Origin: Burkholderiaceae bacterium
GTDB lineage: Bacteria > Pseudomonadota > Gammaproteobacteria > Burkholderiales > Burkholderiaceae
Direction of reading: 5' to 3'
Assembly (NCBI GenBank): GCA_947448625.1
Contig: CANFOT010000003.1
Span: 1-64,000, forward strand
DNA: 64,000 bases
The translations under genes were made by a program, and so were the position numbers. This document shows positions 1-47,623 of the stretch, piece by piece (position 1 is the stretch's first letter; every line of letters begins with the position of its first letter). The notes below the pieces were generated by a model. It was not told the origin of the DNA. It worked only from the letters and a program-made list of their open reading frames with translations, and did no database searches.

Positions 1-127
1 ACCTAGCTAACTTCCCCGTAAGCTGGGTCGAACAGAATTTCACTTTTTGAGAGTTCAGGCGTCAATTTGGCATCTTTGCTGGTGCTCGGGATGCTTCATT
101 AGCGCGCGAAGATCCCCGTCCGCAAAA

Positions 128-295
128 TTCCACCTGTCTTGGCCGGTATCCGGGCTAGTAAATCTCAGAATCTGGCCTTCCCATGCAATTGACGCGCACA
201 GTGGCTCATTCAGACTCCTGACACCTTTACCTTAAGTTAGGGTGCATTTACTTACCGTTGCGGGGGCAGCACACGTTTAGTGTTTCCCGTTTAAC
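128..295 (-). ncRNA. Cobalamin (B12) riboswitch aptamer; the regulated gene lies beyond the left window edge
   Basis: Reverse complement contains GCTGCCCCCGCAACGGTAAG (B12 box region), GAGCCACTGTGCG, ATGGGAAGGCC and AGCCCGGATACCGGCCAAGACAGG in the canonical order. Confidence 0.92.
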
Positions 296-407
296 TTTAT
301 TGCATTGCAACAAAGCACCACGACATCCCAATTCTAGCTCAGGCCCGCCCCTAGTCGGCCTAAAAGCCCAAAAAAGCCTACAATATGCACTCTAGGACTA
401 AGGATTC

Positions 408-1025
408 ATGACAGCATTAGATAAGCACCCCGAAAAAAACCTGATTCGTTTACAGCTTAGCCAAAACTCGGTATTAAAAAGCTTGGATCCTGAAGCAATG
501 GCCGATTTGGAGCGCCATTTAGTGATCTCCGACCTCAAAAAATCAGAAATTCTGCTTCATCAAGGTGATCACCAGATGGAGCAGTACTTTGTGCTGGATG
601 GAATCTTGAAGCGCATTGTCTCTAGCGCGGATGCAAAAGAGATGATTCTGCGATTTGCTATCGAAAAAGACATCGAAACCAGTTATGCGGCTTGGCGCCT
701 TAAGACGGCCGCCCCATATAGCATTGCGTCGGTTACAAAGGCTCGCGTAGCCCGCATGCCCCTCAAAAAATGGGCTGAATTCTTAGATAGCCACAAGCCA
801 CTTAAAGAGAGTTTTGAGTTTGAAGTGATGCGCTTAATGAGTGAGATCATGGCCCACACCATTACTTTGCATATGCTAGATGCCCCAGGTCGGGTAGAGC
901 GTTTCTTACGCAAATACGAAGACTTATTTGAGTTGCTCCCCAAAAAGGAGCTGGCAGCTTACCTCAACCTCTCCCCAGAGACTTTAAGTCGCCTAAAAAC
1001 AAAGCATAAAGAGCTATTTGTCTAA
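408..1025 (+). CDS. Crp/Fnr-family transcriptional regulator, cysteine-free
   Basis: cNMP-like N-terminal domain; C-terminal HTH LPKKELAAYLNLSPETLSRLKTK with the FNR-like E..SR recognition helix; adjacent to oxc. Confidence 0.88.
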   Translation: MTALDKHPEKNLIRLQLSQNSVLKSLDPEAMADLERHLVISDLKKSEILLHQGDHQMEQYFVLDGILKRIVSSADAKEMILRFAIEKDIETSYAAWRLKTAAPYSIASVTKARVARMPLKKWAEFLDSHKPLKESFEFEVMRLMSEIMAHTITLHMLDAPGRVERFLRKYEDLFELLPKKELAAYLNLSPETLSRLKTKHKELFV

Positions 1026-1061: not shown

Positions 1062-1075
1062 TTGACCGAAGTCAA
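1062..1075. promoter_or_regulatory. FNR-like inverted repeat TTGAC-CGAA-GTCAA upstream of oxc
   Basis: Perfect 5-bp arms with 4-bp spacer; centre is 41.5 bp from a predicted TSS near 1110 placed by a -10-like TAAGAT at 1098-1103. Confidence 0.7.
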
Positions 1076-1121
1076 TGATGATCTGCACCCCCAGGCCTAA
1101 GATTCACCTCAGCCTCAACCG

Positions 1122-1237: not shown

Positions 1238-2947
1238 ATGACAACAGACAATCAAAATACACCAGTCACCGATGGCTTTCATCTCGTTATTGATGCTTTA
1301 AAAGCAAACGATCTAGACACGATTTTTGGCCTCGTTGGTATTCCAATTACCGACCTGTGCCGTTTGGCTCAAGCAGAAGGAATGCGTTTTATCGGTTTCC
1401 GTCACGAGCAGCATGCTGGTAACGCAGCAGCGATTGCTGGTTACATGACTCAAAAACCTGGTATCTGCATGACTGTGTCAGCGCCAGGATTCTTGAATGG
1501 TTTAACAGCACTGGCGAATGCTACAGTGAACTGTTTCCCAATGATTTTGATTTCCGGTTCAAGTGAGCGCGAGATCGTTGACTTGCAACAGGGCGATTAC
1601 GAAGAGATGGATCAGCTCAATGCGGCTAAGCCGTATTGCAAAGCTGCATACCGTATTAACCACATTGAAGACATCGGCATTGGTTTTGCTCGCGCAATTC
1701 GTGCAGCGGTTTCTGGTCGTCCAGGTGGTGTGTACTTGGATCTGCCTGCGCAACTTTTGGCTCAAACAATGCCAGTGGAAGAAGCTAAGAAATCCATCTT
1801 CAAAGTAATCGATCCAATTCCACGTCAAATCCCTGCGGCTGATGCTGTAGAGCGTGCCTTGAATGTATTGAAGGGCGCTAAGCGTCCATTGATCCTCCTG
1901 GGCAAGGGCGCCGCTTACGCTCAAGCTGATGCTGACATTCGTGCATTGATTGAAAAGTCCGGTATCCCTTATTTGCCAATGTCAATGGCTAAAGGTTTAT
2001 TGCCAGACAATCATCCGCAATCAGCATCTGCAGCGCGTTCCTTTGTATTGGCTGAGGCTGATGCGGTGATGTTGGTTGGTGCACGTTTGAATTGGTTGCT
2101 TGCGCACGGTAAAGGTAAGACATGGGGCAAAGAGCCTAAGAAATTTATCCAAATCGACATTCAATCAAACGAAGTGGATAGCAACGTACAAATCGATGCT
2201 CCATTGATTGGTGATATCGGCTCTGTTGTTGGTGAACTCCTTAAGGGAATTGCTGCCGTTCCAAAACCATCCGCAGAGTGGATCAGCGCGATCAACGAGA
2301 AAAAAGATAAGAACATGGCGAAGATGGCTGAAACATTGGCCAAAGAAGCTTCACCAATGAACTTCCATGGCGCTTTGCGCGCTATCCGCGATGTAATCAA
2401 GAAGAATCCAGACGTTAACTTAGTTAACGAAGGTGCAAATACTCTGGACTATTGCCGCGCAATTGTGGACATGTACAAGCCACGTAAGCGTTTTGACTCA
2501 GGCACTTGGGGCATCATGGGTATTGGTATGGGCTATGCGATTGGTGCAGCCGTTACTAGTGGCTTGCCAACTGTTGCAGTTGAGGGCGATAGCGCCTTCG
2601 GCTTTAGCGGCATGGAATTGGAAACTATTTGCCGTTATAACTTGCCAATTACTACCGTTGTGTTCAACAACAATGGTGTTTACCGCGGTACTGACGTGAA
2701 TCCAACTGGCGGTGCTGACGTTGCTCCAACGGTGTTTGTTAAGGATGCACGTTACGACAAGATGATTGAGGCATTTGGCGGTGTTGGTTATTACGTAACT
2801 ACCCCGGCCGAGTTGGAAGCAGCTTTGACTAAGGCAATCGCCGAAGGTAAACCTGCCTTGATTAATGCGGTGATTGACGAGACAGCTGGTACAGAGAGTG
2901 GACGTTTAACTAACTTAAACCCATCAACTGCTGCTGGGAAGAAGTAA
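1238..2947 (+). CDS. oxc: Oxalyl-CoA decarboxylase (TPP-dependent)
   Basis: Full-length TPP enzyme, 569 aa; [16 protein letters not shown]...[17 protein letters not shown] and [21 protein letters not shown] motifs; adjacent to frc. Confidence 0.95.
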
Positions 2948-3009
2948 TTCATCAGCATTTTTAAAATATATTTAGTAACGCATAAGTAATACTTTAAGGA
3001 GAAGTAAAC

Positions 3010-4260
3010 ATGACTAAACCATTAGACGGTATTCGTATCATCGATTTCACACACGTACAGGCTGGTCCTGCATGTACTCAATTGTTGGCTTGGTATGGTG
3101 CTGACGTGATCAAGGTAGAGCGCCCAGGTTCTGGTGACGTTACTCGCAGCCAGTTGCGCGATATTCCAGGTGCGGATGCTTTGTATTTCACAATGTTGAA
3201 CGGCAATAAGCGCTCTTTAACTTTGGATACTAAAACTCAAGAAGGTAAAGAAGTTTTAGAGAAGATGATCAAGACATCTGATGTAATGGTTGAGAACTTT
3301 GGCCCAGGCGCTTTGGATCGCATGGGTTTTAGCTGGGCGCGTATTCAAGAATTGAATCCAAAAATGATCATGGCTTCTGTAAAAGGATTTAGCGATGGCC
3401 ATTCATACGAAGACTTAAAAGTGTATGAGAACGTTGCTCAGTGCGCTGGTGGTGCTGCCTCAACTACTGGTTTCTGGGATGGTCCTCCTACAGTTTCTGC
3501 TGCTGCTTTGGGTGACAGCAATACTGGTATGCATTTGGCGATTGGTATTTTGACTGCATTGATGCAGCGTCAAAAGACTGGCAAAGGCCAAAAAGTATCA
3601 TGCTCAATGCAAGATGCCGTATTGAACTTGTGCCGCGTTAAATTGCGCGACCAACAACGTTTGGACAAAATTGGTTACCTCGAAGAGTACCCACAGTACC
3701 CACATGGCACATTCTCTGATGTAGTTCCACGCGGCGGTAACGCTGGTGGTGGCGGTCAGCCAGGTTGGGTATTGAAGTGTAAGGGTTGGGAAACAGATCC
3801 AAACGCTTACATCTATTTCACTATTCAAGGTCACGCTTGGGAGCCAATCACACGTGCGATTGGCAAGCCAGAGTGGGCAACAGATCCAGCCTACATGACT
3901 GCTGAAGCTCGTCAAGACAAGATTTTTGACATCTTCGCAACTATTGAAGAGTGGCTCAAGGACAAGACTAAGTACGAAGCTGTGGACATTCTCCGCAAGT
4001 TCGACATTCCTTGTGCGCCGGTTCTCTCAATGAAGGAATTGGCTGCATCACCAGACTTGCGTAAGAGTGGTTCTATTGTTGAAGTTGACCACAAGGTTCG
4101 TGGTAAGTACTTAACAATTGGTAGCCCAATCAAGTTCTCTGACTTAGAAATTGAAGTTGGTCCATCACCAGTATTGGGTGAGCACACTAATGAAGTGTTG
4201 ACTGACCTTGGTTATAGTGCTGATGACATCGCTAAGTTACATGCAGCGAAAGCAGTTTAA
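3010..4260 (+). CDS. frc: Formyl-CoA:oxalate CoA-transferase
   Basis: CoA-transferase family III; closely resembles remembered YfdW/Frc sequences; [10 protein letters not shown] glycine loop and [10 protein letters not shown] catalytic Asp region. Confidence 0.95.
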
Positions 4261-4355: not shown

Positions 4356-4778
4356 ATGAAAACAAATGTCGATTTATTGCAATTAGTGGACTGCTTTGGT
4401 GATGCAGTGATCGTTGCCGATGCGAGCGAAAAGATTGTTCTTTGGAATGCAGCGGCGACTAGAATTTTTGGCTACTCCGAAGAGGAGGCGCTCGGCAATA
4501 CTTTGGACCTCATTGTCCCTGAGCGTCAGCGCCAAAGGCATAACGAGGGTTACAGCAAGTCCATGGAGACAGGTACTACACGGTATGGCACTTCCTTGCT
4601 AAGGGTGCCTGCTAAGCATAAGGATGGACGTACCCTGTCGATAGCTTTTACGGTGGGAATGCTGTTTGACGAAAAGCATCAGGCCAATGGTGTGGCAGCA
4701 GTGATTCGTGATGAGACTGAGCGTTTCGCCGAAGAAAGGGCTTTGAAAAAAAGACTCTCTGATCTTGAAAACCCCTGA
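4356..4778 (+). CDS. Stand-alone PAS (S-box) domain protein
   Basis: 140 aa; VIVADASEKIVLWNAAATRIFGYSEEEALGNTLDLIVPERQRQRHNEGY; no kinase or output domain. Confidence 0.85.
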   Translation: MKTNVDLLQLVDCFGDAVIVADASEKIVLWNAAATRIFGYSEEEALGNTLDLIVPERQRQRHNEGYSKSMETGTTRYGTSLLRVPAKHKDGRTLSIAFTVGMLFDEKHQANGVAAVIRDETERFAEERALKKRLSDLENP

Positions 4779-4912: not shown

Positions 4913-6160
4913 ATGGCAAAAGCATTAGAGGGGGTGAAAGTCCTCGACTTTACGCACGTTCAATCGGGCCCAACCTGTACGCAGTTGCTCGCTTGGTTTG
5001 GGGCGGACGTAATTAAGGTGGAGAAATCTGGCGAGGGTGATGCAACTCGCGGTCAGTTGCGAGATATTCCGGATGCGGATAGCTTGTATTTCACAATGCT
5101 TAACCATAATAAACGCTCCATTACTGTCAATACCAAAACCCAGAAGGGTAAGGAAATTCTTGAGCGCCTCATTAAAGAGTGCGATGTCTTAGTTGAGAAC
5201 TTTGCACCAGGCGCATTGGATCGCATGGGTTTCTCTTGGGAGCGTATTCAAGAACTTAACCCCATGATGATCATGGCCTCGGTAAAAGGTTTCGGACCTG
5301 GTCCTTACGAGGATTGCAAGGTCTATGAAAACGTTGCTCAGTGTGCGGGTGGTTCTGCATCTACCACTGGTTTTGATGATGGCCCTCCGATGGTGACAGG
5401 CGCACAAATTGGTGACAGTGGTACGGGCTTGCATTTGGCATTAGGAATTGTGACAGCCTTGTATCAACGTACACATTCTGGTCGCGGTCAAAAAGTATTG
5501 GCAGCAATGCAAGATGCCGTATTGAATTTATGTCGTGTGAAGTTGCGCGATCAACAGCGTTTGGAGCGTAACGGCACAATGCAAGAGTACCCGCAGTTCC
5601 CAAATGGTGAATTTGGAGACTCTGTACCCCGCGCTGGCAATGCTTCAGGTGGTGGCCAACCTGGTTGGATTCTGAAGTGCAAGGGCTGGGAGACAGATCC
5701 CAACTCCTATATTTATGTCGTTGTTCAGGCTCCAGTGTGGGAGGCAATTTGTAAAGTGATTGGTCGTGAAGATTGGATTACGGATTCTAACTTTGCCTCC
5801 CCAATGGCACGCTTGCCACGCTTGATGGAAATCTTCGCTGAGATTGAAAAGTGGACCATGACTTTAACGAAGTTTGAAGTAATGGATATTTTGAATAAGT
5901 ATGACGTTCCTTGCGGCCCTATTTTGTCGATGAAGGAGATTTCTGAAGAGCAGTCATTGCGCGATACTGGTACGGTAGTCGAAGTTGATCATCCTATCCG
6001 CGGCAAGTATTTGACAGTAGGCAATCCGATCAAAATGTCTGACAGCCCAACCGATGTCACTCGTTCACCATTGTTGGGTGAGCATACTGATGAGATTCTC
6101 AGTGAGCTGGGCTTCACTACGGATGAATTGATTTCCTTGCGTCACGATAAGGTGATCTAA
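4913..6160 (+). CDS. Second family III CoA-transferase, formyl-CoA transferase paralogue
   Basis: Strongly similar to the 3010-4260 product along its length; glycine loop is ASGGGQPG instead of AGGGGQPG. Confidence 0.88.
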
Positions 6161-6161
6161 G

Positions 6162-7094
6162 ATGCGGGTTGCGTTAATCGGGAGTGCAGATTTTGGCAGG
6201 GCGGCCTTAGAGGCTTTTTTAGATCGCGGCGATGAAGTCGTTGCTGTCTTTTGCCCGCCTGATAATCCTAAATCCACCAAGCCTGAGGCGCTGAAAGAGG
6301 CAGCTATTGCTAGGGGTTTAACGCCCTTGCAGTTCTCCTCTCTAAAAGGCCCTGAGGCAGCCCAAGCCATGATTGATAGCAGGGCTGATATCTGTGTCAT
6401 GGCCTATGTACTTCAATTTGTTCCCCAGGAGTTGGCTAAGTTACCACTCCATGGCACGATTCAATATCATCCGTCTTTGTTGCCTAAGTACCGCGGGCCG
6501 AGCGCTATTAATTGGGCAATCGCATTAGGCGAGGAAAAAACAGGCTTAACAATCTTCCGCCCATCCGATGGTTTGGATGAGGGCGAAATCATCTTGCAAA
6601 AAGAAGTGGTGATTGCACCTGACGATACTTTGGGTACGGTTTACTTCGACCGCTTATTTCCATTGGGCGTTCAAGCCCTGCTAGAGGCGGCTGATCTGGT
6701 GCTTGCAAATCAGTATCAAGAAGTCACTCAAGATGAGTCTCAAGCTAATTACGAGGGGTGGTTTGGTGTTGATGCCGCTCAAATCCACTGGGCAACACAC
6801 ATCACTCAAATTTATAACTTGATTCGCGCCAGCAATCCTGCGCCTGGCGCTTGGACTAGGCTTGGGGAGCAAAAAGTGCAGATCTACGACTGCCATAAGC
6901 ATGTAGCAGCGACTTTCGGATCCGTGAAAGGCAAGCCTGGCGAGATCACCCAGATTACTTTGAATTCTTTTTTCATCACCTGTCATGGCGGGCAAATTGA
7001 AGTTCTCAAGGCAAAGGGCGCTGGTGGAAAAGTAACTGGCGCTGAATTGGCTAAAGAGTTGAATTTGGAAGTAGGCCAGATCTTCGCGCTCTAG
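6162..7094 (+). CDS. Formyltransferase/hydrolase-fold protein, Fmt / 10-formyl-THF dehydrogenase N-terminal-domain like
   Basis: HGTIQYHPSLLPKYRGPSAINWAI motif and DDTLGTVYFDRLFPLGV; starts 1 nt after the upstream stop codon. Confidence 0.85.
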   Translation: MRVALIGSADFGRAALEAFLDRGDEVVAVFCPPDNPKSTKPEALKEAAIARGLTPLQFSSLKGPEAAQAMIDSRADICVMAYVLQFVPQELAKLPLHGTIQYHPSLLPKYRGPSAINWAIALGEEKTGLTIFRPSDGLDEGEIILQKEVVIAPDDTLGTVYFDRLFPLGVQALLEAADLVLANQYQEVTQDESQANYEGWFGVDAAQIHWATHITQIYNLIRASNPAPGAWTRLGEQKVQIYDCHKHVAATFGSVKGKPGEITQITLNSFFITCHGGQIEVLKAKGAGGKVTGAELAKELNLEVGQIFAL

Positions 7095-46074: not shown

Positions 46075-46247
46075 ACTCTCCTTTTTTTGCCATGAAATTG
46101 CTTGCATCAGATCTGTAGTCGAGGGTTATTCCTCAACCCTAGCAACTCAAAAAATAAAAACACTGAAGTAAGATAAGTTCGAGCTCTGATCCACATGGTG
46201 TGGGGCTTTTTGACGAGGGTAATCACTAGTGCGGAAAAGATTGAATC

Positions 46248-46261
46248 TTGACGGTAGTCAA
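46248..46261. promoter_or_regulatory. FNR-like inverted repeat TTGAC-GGTA-GTCAA upstream of the oxlT-like gene
   Basis: Same arms and spacer as the oxc-upstream site at 1062-1075. Confidence 0.7.
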
Positions 46262-46360
46262 GAGATTGATAGCGTATATGCTGAAAAATCAAGTACCGCA
46301 TTTATGGCGGAATTCGTATGCAGTAAAGAGATTTAATAAAAGATAAACAGGAGATTACAG

Positions 46361-47623
46361 ATGAGCAGCGAGAAAACTACAGGACCTTTAGGGGGTCGTT
46401 GGTTTCAGCTACTAATCGGCATTGTATGTATGTCGATGATTGCAAACTTGCAATATGGTTGGACTTTATTTGTAAATCCAATTGATGCTAAGTTTGGATG
46501 GGGCAGAGCAGCTATTCAAGTTGCATTCACAATTTTTGTATTAACCGAAACTTGGTTGGTGCCAATTGAAGGCTACTTAGTTGATAAATTTGGCCCACGC
46601 CCAGTGGTGTTCTTCGGTGGTTTATTGTGCGGCCTTGGCTGGATGATGAATGCCCATGCAGACACATTAACTATGCTCTATACGGCTGCTGCAGTTAGCG
46701 GTGTAGGTGCAGGCGCTGTTTATGGTACTTGCGTTGGTAACGCCCTCAAATGGTTCCCGGATCGCCGTGGTTTGGCTGCAGGTATGACTGCTGCTGGATT
46801 TGGCGCTGGTTCTGCATTGACTGTGATTCCAATCGCAAACATGATTGCAAATCAAGGCTACCAAGATGCTTTCTGGTACTTTGGTATTTGGCAGGGAGCA
46901 ATCGTTGTTGTCTTGAGTTTGTTGCTTTCCAAGCCAATTAAGAGCGCTATTACTTCTGTAAAAGCTTCTGTAGCCCAGACCCGTAAAGACTTCCGTCCAA
47001 TGGAAATGGTCAAGCAGCCTGTTTTCTGGATCATGTACCTCATGTTTGTCATGGTTGCTGCTGGTGGTTTGATGGCTACTGCACAATTGGGCCCAATTGC
47101 TAAAGACTTCCAGATTGCTGGTGTAACAGTGAGTTTGATGGGCTTGGCATTGCCAGCATTGACTTTTGCCTTGACTGTGGACCGCGTACTGAATGGCTTA
47201 ACTCGTCCATTCTTTGGCTGGGTTTCAGACAAGATTGGCCGCGAACAAACAATGACACTTTGCTTTTCATTTGAGTGCTTAGGTATTCTTGGTTTGTATT
47301 ACCTCGGTCGTGATCCAGTGATGTTTGTTTTGTTAACTGGACTCGTGTTCTTTGCTTGGGGTGAGATTTATAGTCTTTTCCCATCAACCAACGCAGATAC
47401 ATTTGGTTCAACCTATGCTGCTGGTAATGCAGGCCTCCTCTACACAGCGAAAGGTACAGCTTCATTGTTAGTTCCTTTGTCTAGCGTTTTGGTTGCTACT
47501 ACTGGTGGTTGGGAGGTGGTTTTCTGGGTTGCTAGTTTCTTGAATGGAACTGCTGCGATCTTGGCTTGGTTTGTATTGCGCCCAATGCGTCGCAAACTTA
47601 TCGAACGCTCAGCTTCGATGTAA
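46361..47623 (+). CDS. MFS transporter, oxalate/formate antiporter (OxlT) family
   Basis: NLQYGWTLFVNPIDAKFGWGRAAIQVAFTIFVLTETWLVPIEGYLVDKFGPR. Confidence 0.92.
   Translation: MSSEKTTGPLGGRWFQLLIGIVCMSMIANLQYGWTLFVNPIDAKFGWGRAAIQVAFTIFVLTETWLVPIEGYLVDKFGPRPVVFFGGLLCGLGWMMNAHADTLTMLYTAAAVSGVGAGAVYGTCVGNALKWFPDRRGLAAGMTAAGFGAGSALTVIPIANMIANQGYQDAFWYFGIWQGAIVVVLSLLLSKPIKSAITSVKASVAQTRKDFRPMEMVKQPVFWIMYLMFVMVAAGGLMATAQLGPIAKDFQIAGVTVSLMGLALPALTFALTVDRVLNGLTRPFFGWVSDKIGREQTMTLCFSFECLGILGLYYLGRDPVMFVLLTGLVFFAWGEIYSLFPSTNADTFGSTYAAGNAGLLYTAKGTASLLVPLSSVLVATTGGWEVVFWVASFLNGTAAILAWFVLRPMRRKLIERSASM

Follow-up and report, generated by a model that had tools for sequence, protein, structure and literature searches.

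Putative Control of an Oxalate Regulon by a Wingless Crp/Fnr-Type Activator in Polynucleobacter and Other Burkholderiales

Introduction

FNR of Escherichia coli is a Crp/Fnr dimer that recognizes the 14-bp palindrome TTGAT-N4-ATCAA, carries an E-x-x-S-R helix and activates class II promoters from a position centered at -41.5. A published comparative study assigned the operator TTGACnnnnGTCAA to those HcpR proteins in which Glu181 follows a Ser or Pro at position 180 (PMC1274295).

The oxalate pathway is relevant to carbon in soil and freshwater, to plant colonization and to kidney-stone probiotics. In open-licence PMC papers, where the lack of a report is not proof of absence, we came across no account of a transcriptional regulator for the oxc/frc route, and nothing on point for an oxalate tripartite transporter or for oxalate control in Polynucleobacter. 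Bacteria of the Polynucleobacter F10 lineage are reported not to have assimilated oxalate (PMC3308952).

Here, we analyze a 64-kb stretch of DNA (64,000 nucleotides; the window) from the assembly of a freshwater bacterium (1.76 Mb in 60 contigs, 82% complete), which its relatives place in the genus Polynucleobacter, and compare it with over a hundred related genomes. The Crp/Fnr kind of regulator is already known and the operator has been assigned to HcpR; the oxalate regulon described below appears to be new.

Results

The proposed regulator, the oxalate cluster and the distant oxlT gene are arranged in the window as follows.

408..1025, + strand: Crp/Fnr-type regulator, 205 aa, proposed oxalate regulator (PF00027, 31.2 bits)
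1062..1075, no strand assigned: operator TTGACCGAAGTCAA, upstream of oxc
1098..1103, + strand: -10 box TAAGAT, 22 bp after the oxc operator (consensus TAAKAT, fixed spacing across the genus)
1238..2947, + strand: oxc, oxalyl-CoA decarboxylase (NF006721, 1015 bits; TIGR03254, 986 bits)
3010..4260, + strand: frc copy 1, formyl-CoA transferase (TIGR03253, 726 bits, cut-off 504)
4356..4778, + strand: small PAS-domain protein within the oxalate cluster (PF00989, TIGR00229)
4913..6160, + strand: frc copy 2 (TIGR03253, 736 bits)
6162..7094, + strand: formyltransferase-family gene, under the fmt cut-off (PF00551/PF02911; synteny)
46248..46261, no strand assigned: operator TTGACGGTAGTCAA, upstream of oxlT
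46284..46289, + strand: -10-like AAAAAT, 22 bp after the oxlT operator (nearly all orthologues keep the spacing seen at oxc)
46361..47623, + strand: oxlT, oxalate/formate MFS antiporter (TIGR04259 equivalog, 642 bits, cut-off 335)

Formyltransferase-family genes of this type are linked to frc or oxc in many families, as judged by synteny, and the PAS-protein gene is retained in the oxalate cluster of loci L065 and L318. The oxc leader RNA (1110-1237) was considered and rejected: its conservation within Polynucleobacter is poor, several species have a shortened version, and no Rfam family was found within it. A cobalamin riboswitch (124-337, minus strand; RF00174, 77.9 bits) points beyond the contig start, its target gene lying outside this piece of the assembly.

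The preliminary description of this DNA reported two TTGAC-N4-GTCAA palindromes whose arms are perfect and whose spacer is 4 bp long, one upstream of oxc and one upstream of oxlT, and both were found exactly there. These are the 2 exact sites in the window, for which dinucleotide shuffles give an expectation of 0.05, with 0 shuffles reaching 2. In the whole assembly the exact motif occurs at 4 places, versus 2 for a reversed control. The third (C14:21139) is intragenic, lying in the reading frame of a CoA-transferase family III gene; the fourth (C4:60084) is followed by no oxalate gene, and both look unrelated to the oxalate operators. The exact motif is thus rare in the genome. A scan at up to one mismatch, proposed in order to see whether hits gather at oxalate genes, gave 83 sites versus 45 in the reversed control and by itself fails to single out the oxalate genes. 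Given so common a motif, the core alone is insufficient to define a regulon without promoter context, and the scan was dropped for that purpose; a one-mismatch site within the second frc gene (6011-6024) was taken as chance. When the pattern was extended to operator-N22/23-NANNAT, the window's genome held exactly 2 matches, at oxc and oxlT, and the reversed control 0. When 91 Polynucleobacter genomes were scanned, the reversed control produced 1 match in total, and some of these genomes also have non-oxc matches to the true pattern.

At oxc, the operator stands out as a footprint. Across the intergenic regions between regulator and oxc of 53 Polynucleobacter sequences, not one of the 10 arm columns varies, whereas only 7 of 192 other columns are invariant; the first two columns of the spacer vary. 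Among 80 named Polynucleobacter loci, a set that partly overlaps the 53 regions, the operator is exact in 79 and has one mismatch in the remaining 1. Across the genus, a TANNAT/TAAKAT -10 box begins 22 bp past the operator, which puts the operator center at -41.5 if the -10 box occupies -12 to -7; no recognizable -35 box was seen at the oxc promoters of this footprint. The possibility that TTGAC is itself an ordinary -35 box was rejected, since the conserved -10 box follows it by about 30 bp and not by 16 to 18. With start sites predicted, the spacing is that of a class II Crp/Fnr promoter, in which the operator lies near -41.5 upstream of the -10 box, and this placement points to activation. 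Alternatively, the adjacent regulator may bind these sites as a repressor that is released by oxalate, given that the operator overlaps the would-be -35 position and a repressor could block there. We consider this unlikely, since an operator at -41.5, held at an almost fixed distance from the -10 box in the different families and combined with the lack of a recognizable -35 box, is the layout of a class II activator.

The site upstream of oxlT is kept as CTTGAY-N4-RTCAA in 15 of 15 Polynucleobacter orthologues, mostly in the form TTGAT-N4-GTCAA (the left half is TTGAT in 13 of the 15), and perfect TTGAC-N4-GTCAA arms are restricted to the window's genome and one other. Here 8 of the 10 arm columns are invariant, versus 18 of 210 elsewhere, and the spacer is freely variable. 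In a genome of another family (G097), an oxlT gene that is 73% identical has the exact motif upstream. Alignment of orthologous upstream regions thus bore out the expectation that the motif would be conserved ahead of both oxc and oxlT. A second conserved block (window 46216-46230, around GGGTAATCACTAG) lies upstream of the oxlT operator in nearly all orthologues.

The regulator itself has no cysteine, and its chain stops a few residues past the recognition helix. Its sensory domain, of the cNMP-binding type typical of the Crp/Fnr superfamily, scores above the PF00027 cut-off of 27.5 bits, and residues 173-196 match the C-terminal Crp-type domain PF13545 at 19.6 bits, under the cut-off of 27, the helix-turn-helix being present and the wing missing. 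The protein falls far below the CRP equivalog (NF008732, 26.2 bits versus a cut-off of 266), and the four cysteines for the 4Fe-4S cluster of FNR are absent, with 0 Cys in the window protein and 0 to 3 in its orthologues. That E..SR is kept in the recognition helix, as had been claimed from the window alone, proved correct: P190-E191-T192-L193-S194-R195 align with FNR positions E209, S212 and R213, and E191, S194 and R195 conform to the E-x-x-S/G-R type of helix that reads TTGA/TGTGA half-sites. In 65 orthologues, drawn from several families, the E191-T192-L193-S194-R195 stretch does not vary. R82, T91, W96 and R113 are likewise invariant across families and may surround a ligand pocket. P190-E191 also matches the Ser/Pro180-Glu181 code of those HcpR proteins whose operator type is found here, and the recognition code thus agrees with published comparative work (PMC1274295). 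The nearest solved structure by sequence is 3dn7 (residues 32-200, E 2e-8); an AlphaFold model with 14 close homologues was discarded (mean pLDDT, 44.5). A second wingless Crp/Fnr protein, 24% identical, is encoded in genome G018 (L169:577-1185, minus strand) beside an MFS-transporter-like gene, which suggests that this wingless type is paired with MFS-like transporters more widely.

An FNR-like protein (L167), which has a cluster of cysteines near its N terminus and shares the E-T-x-S-R helix, is also encoded in the window's genome, and, at 82% completeness, further Crp/Fnr proteins may be absent from the assembly. With the same recognition residues, L167 could bind the same sites, in which case these would be FNR sites through which an Fe-S protein, its gene lying at another place in the genome, controls the oxalate genes in response to oxygen; the oxlT half-sites, often TTGAT, are nearer to canonical FNR. 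The distribution of the genes makes this explanation very improbable. Regulator and oxc are both present in 69 of the 91 genus genomes and both missing from 17; 1 genome has the regulator only, with a contig end within the expected oxc position, and 4 have oxc only. In three of these four (G003, G015 and G025) oxc is intact with no operator upstream, and the fourth holds pseudogene remnants of both regulator and oxc. The presence of FNR shows no association with that of oxc (p = 0.51), whereas the regulator tracks oxc. Moreover, 15 Polynucleobacter genomes with regulator and oxc, several of them complete (e.g., G010, G016 and G063), lack FNR and yet keep the operator, while the three oxc genes that lack an operator belong to genomes that have an FNR homologue and no regulator. 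G018, which has no FNR, retains oxlT with a two-mismatch operator. From this co-inheritance, taken with the recognition helix, we infer that the adjacent regulator binds the operator. The earlier proposal that it controls both oxalate uptake and oxalate degradation is therefore supported in silico, the motif being conserved and traveling with the regulator and not with FNR. As for loss, G023 lacks oxc and frc and has both regulator and oxlT as pseudogenes (L049, L104), and in G017 (L174) regulator and oxc are pseudogenes together, a picture of oxalate-system decay.

Outside the genus, 56 regulator loci from other Burkholderiales were compared. In 50 of them an operator with no more than one mismatch (34 exact) lies within 450 bp of the regulator, and in the remaining 6 the operator precedes frc, oxc or fhs. 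In these 56 loci the operator density is 1.19 per kb near the regulator versus 0.07 per kb elsewhere, and the regulator adjoins oxalate genes in nearly all. TANNNT is found at offset 36/37 for 70 of the 93 sites of other families, against a background mean of 1.4 per offset; 64 of the 70 spaced promoters aim directly at oxc, frc, fhs, fmt or a TPP enzyme in the oxc slot, while the regulator itself is the target of 3. Further operators lie upstream of frc, of TctC-type tripartite transporter genes and of fhs (formate-THF ligase); the 22/23-bp TANNNT spacing was not seen at the tripartite-transporter sites. The genomes compared here, in the genus and beyond it, are related, and the counts are therefore not independent events; because the arrangement is spread over many genera and in different gene orders, however, shared ancestry of flanking DNA is insufficient as an explanation. 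As for the idea that the two palindromes of the window arose by chance and regulate nothing, the genome does contain many copies of the motif at one mismatch, but the conservation of the footprint, the fixed -10 spacing and the association with the regulator over many families contradict chance, which we regard as hardly conceivable.

Tripartite tricarboxylate transporter genes with operators of their own adjoin the regulator in L067, L068, L074, L080, L297, L301, L310, L313, L316 and L318, and this transporter is a candidate for oxalate import where a lineage has no oxlT close by. In L065 (10103-11869), L066, L068, L296, L297 and L311, the place of oxc next to regulator and frc, still under the operator, is taken by another TPP enzyme that shares about 26% identity with oxc; the L065 copy is under every NCBIfam cut-off shown. 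This enzyme may likewise act on oxalyl-CoA or formyl-CoA.

In some Polynucleobacter, similar sites precede unrelated genes (an AAA ATPase pair and sucCD), and the motif alone is thus not oxalate specific. The AAA ATPase and a hydrolase-like gene stand under TTGACTGCAGTCAA-N22-TATGAT in about 10 Polynucleobacter loci (L146-L155; e.g., L149:3027-4682 and 2324-3097, both on the minus strand). The ATPase has a weak match to the anti-phage ATPase IteA, and the pair sits in different neighbourhoods, as if mobile. TTGAC-N4-GTCAA precedes sucCD in one Polynucleobacter subgroup (L156-L159).

Discussion

The operators, their conservation, their placement and their co-inheritance with the regulator are apparent from the genome sequences, and the best account of them, which we hold to be highly probable, is class II activation of an oxalate regulon by the wingless Crp/Fnr protein. 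The 205-aa protein encoded at 408-1025 would be a dedicated regulator of oxalate metabolism, the dimer of which binds TTGAC-N4-GTCAA, with TTGAY-N4-RTCAA tolerated, and E191, S194 and R195 would read the TTGA half-sites as in FNR. From operators centered at -41.5 it would most likely contact RNA polymerase in the class II manner, activating promoters that have a -10 box but no evident -35 box, and oxlT, although distant, would be switched on jointly with the oxc-frc-PAS-frc-formyltransferase cluster. The cNMP-type domain presumably senses oxalate or an intermediate such as oxalyl-CoA or formyl-CoA, effectors that we guess from the pathway.

A broader possibility, on which we are evenly divided, is that a dedicated and undescribed oxalate regulator spans the Burkholderiales. 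Such a wingless Crp/Fnr protein would sense oxalyl-CoA, formyl-CoA or oxalate and, through one operator, activate uptake (by OxlT in certain lineages and by a tripartite TctABC-type transporter in others), decarboxylation by oxc/frc and one-carbon entry by fhs. If this is true, it predicts that the tripartite transporter is an oxalate importer. The regulon also proposes functions for neighbouring genes, namely the tripartite transporter, the PAS protein, the formyltransferase-like gene and the alternative TPP enzyme in the oxc slot. With a defined operator and regulator, oxalate control becomes directly testable, and the pair is a candidate oxalate-responsive switch.

Among known systems, the wingless cyclic-nucleotide-binding regulatory protein 3dn7 (PDB) also ends just past its recognition helix, but its sequence identity to the regulator is low. 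With E. coli FNR the regulator shares its Crp/Fnr membership, the 14-bp palindrome, the E-x-x-S-R helix and a -41.5 placement, the last deduced here from sequence. Unlike FNR, it lacks cysteines and therefore an Fe-S oxygen sensor, its half-site ends in C, its chain stops before the wing and its targets are oxalate genes. The HcpR proteins of Geobacter and Desulfuromonas resemble it in their predicted operator, wyTTGACnnnnGTCAArw, and in the Ser/Pro180 and Glu181 pair, but these proteins target hcp, frdX and nitrogen-oxide genes and differ in both lineage and role (PMC1274295).
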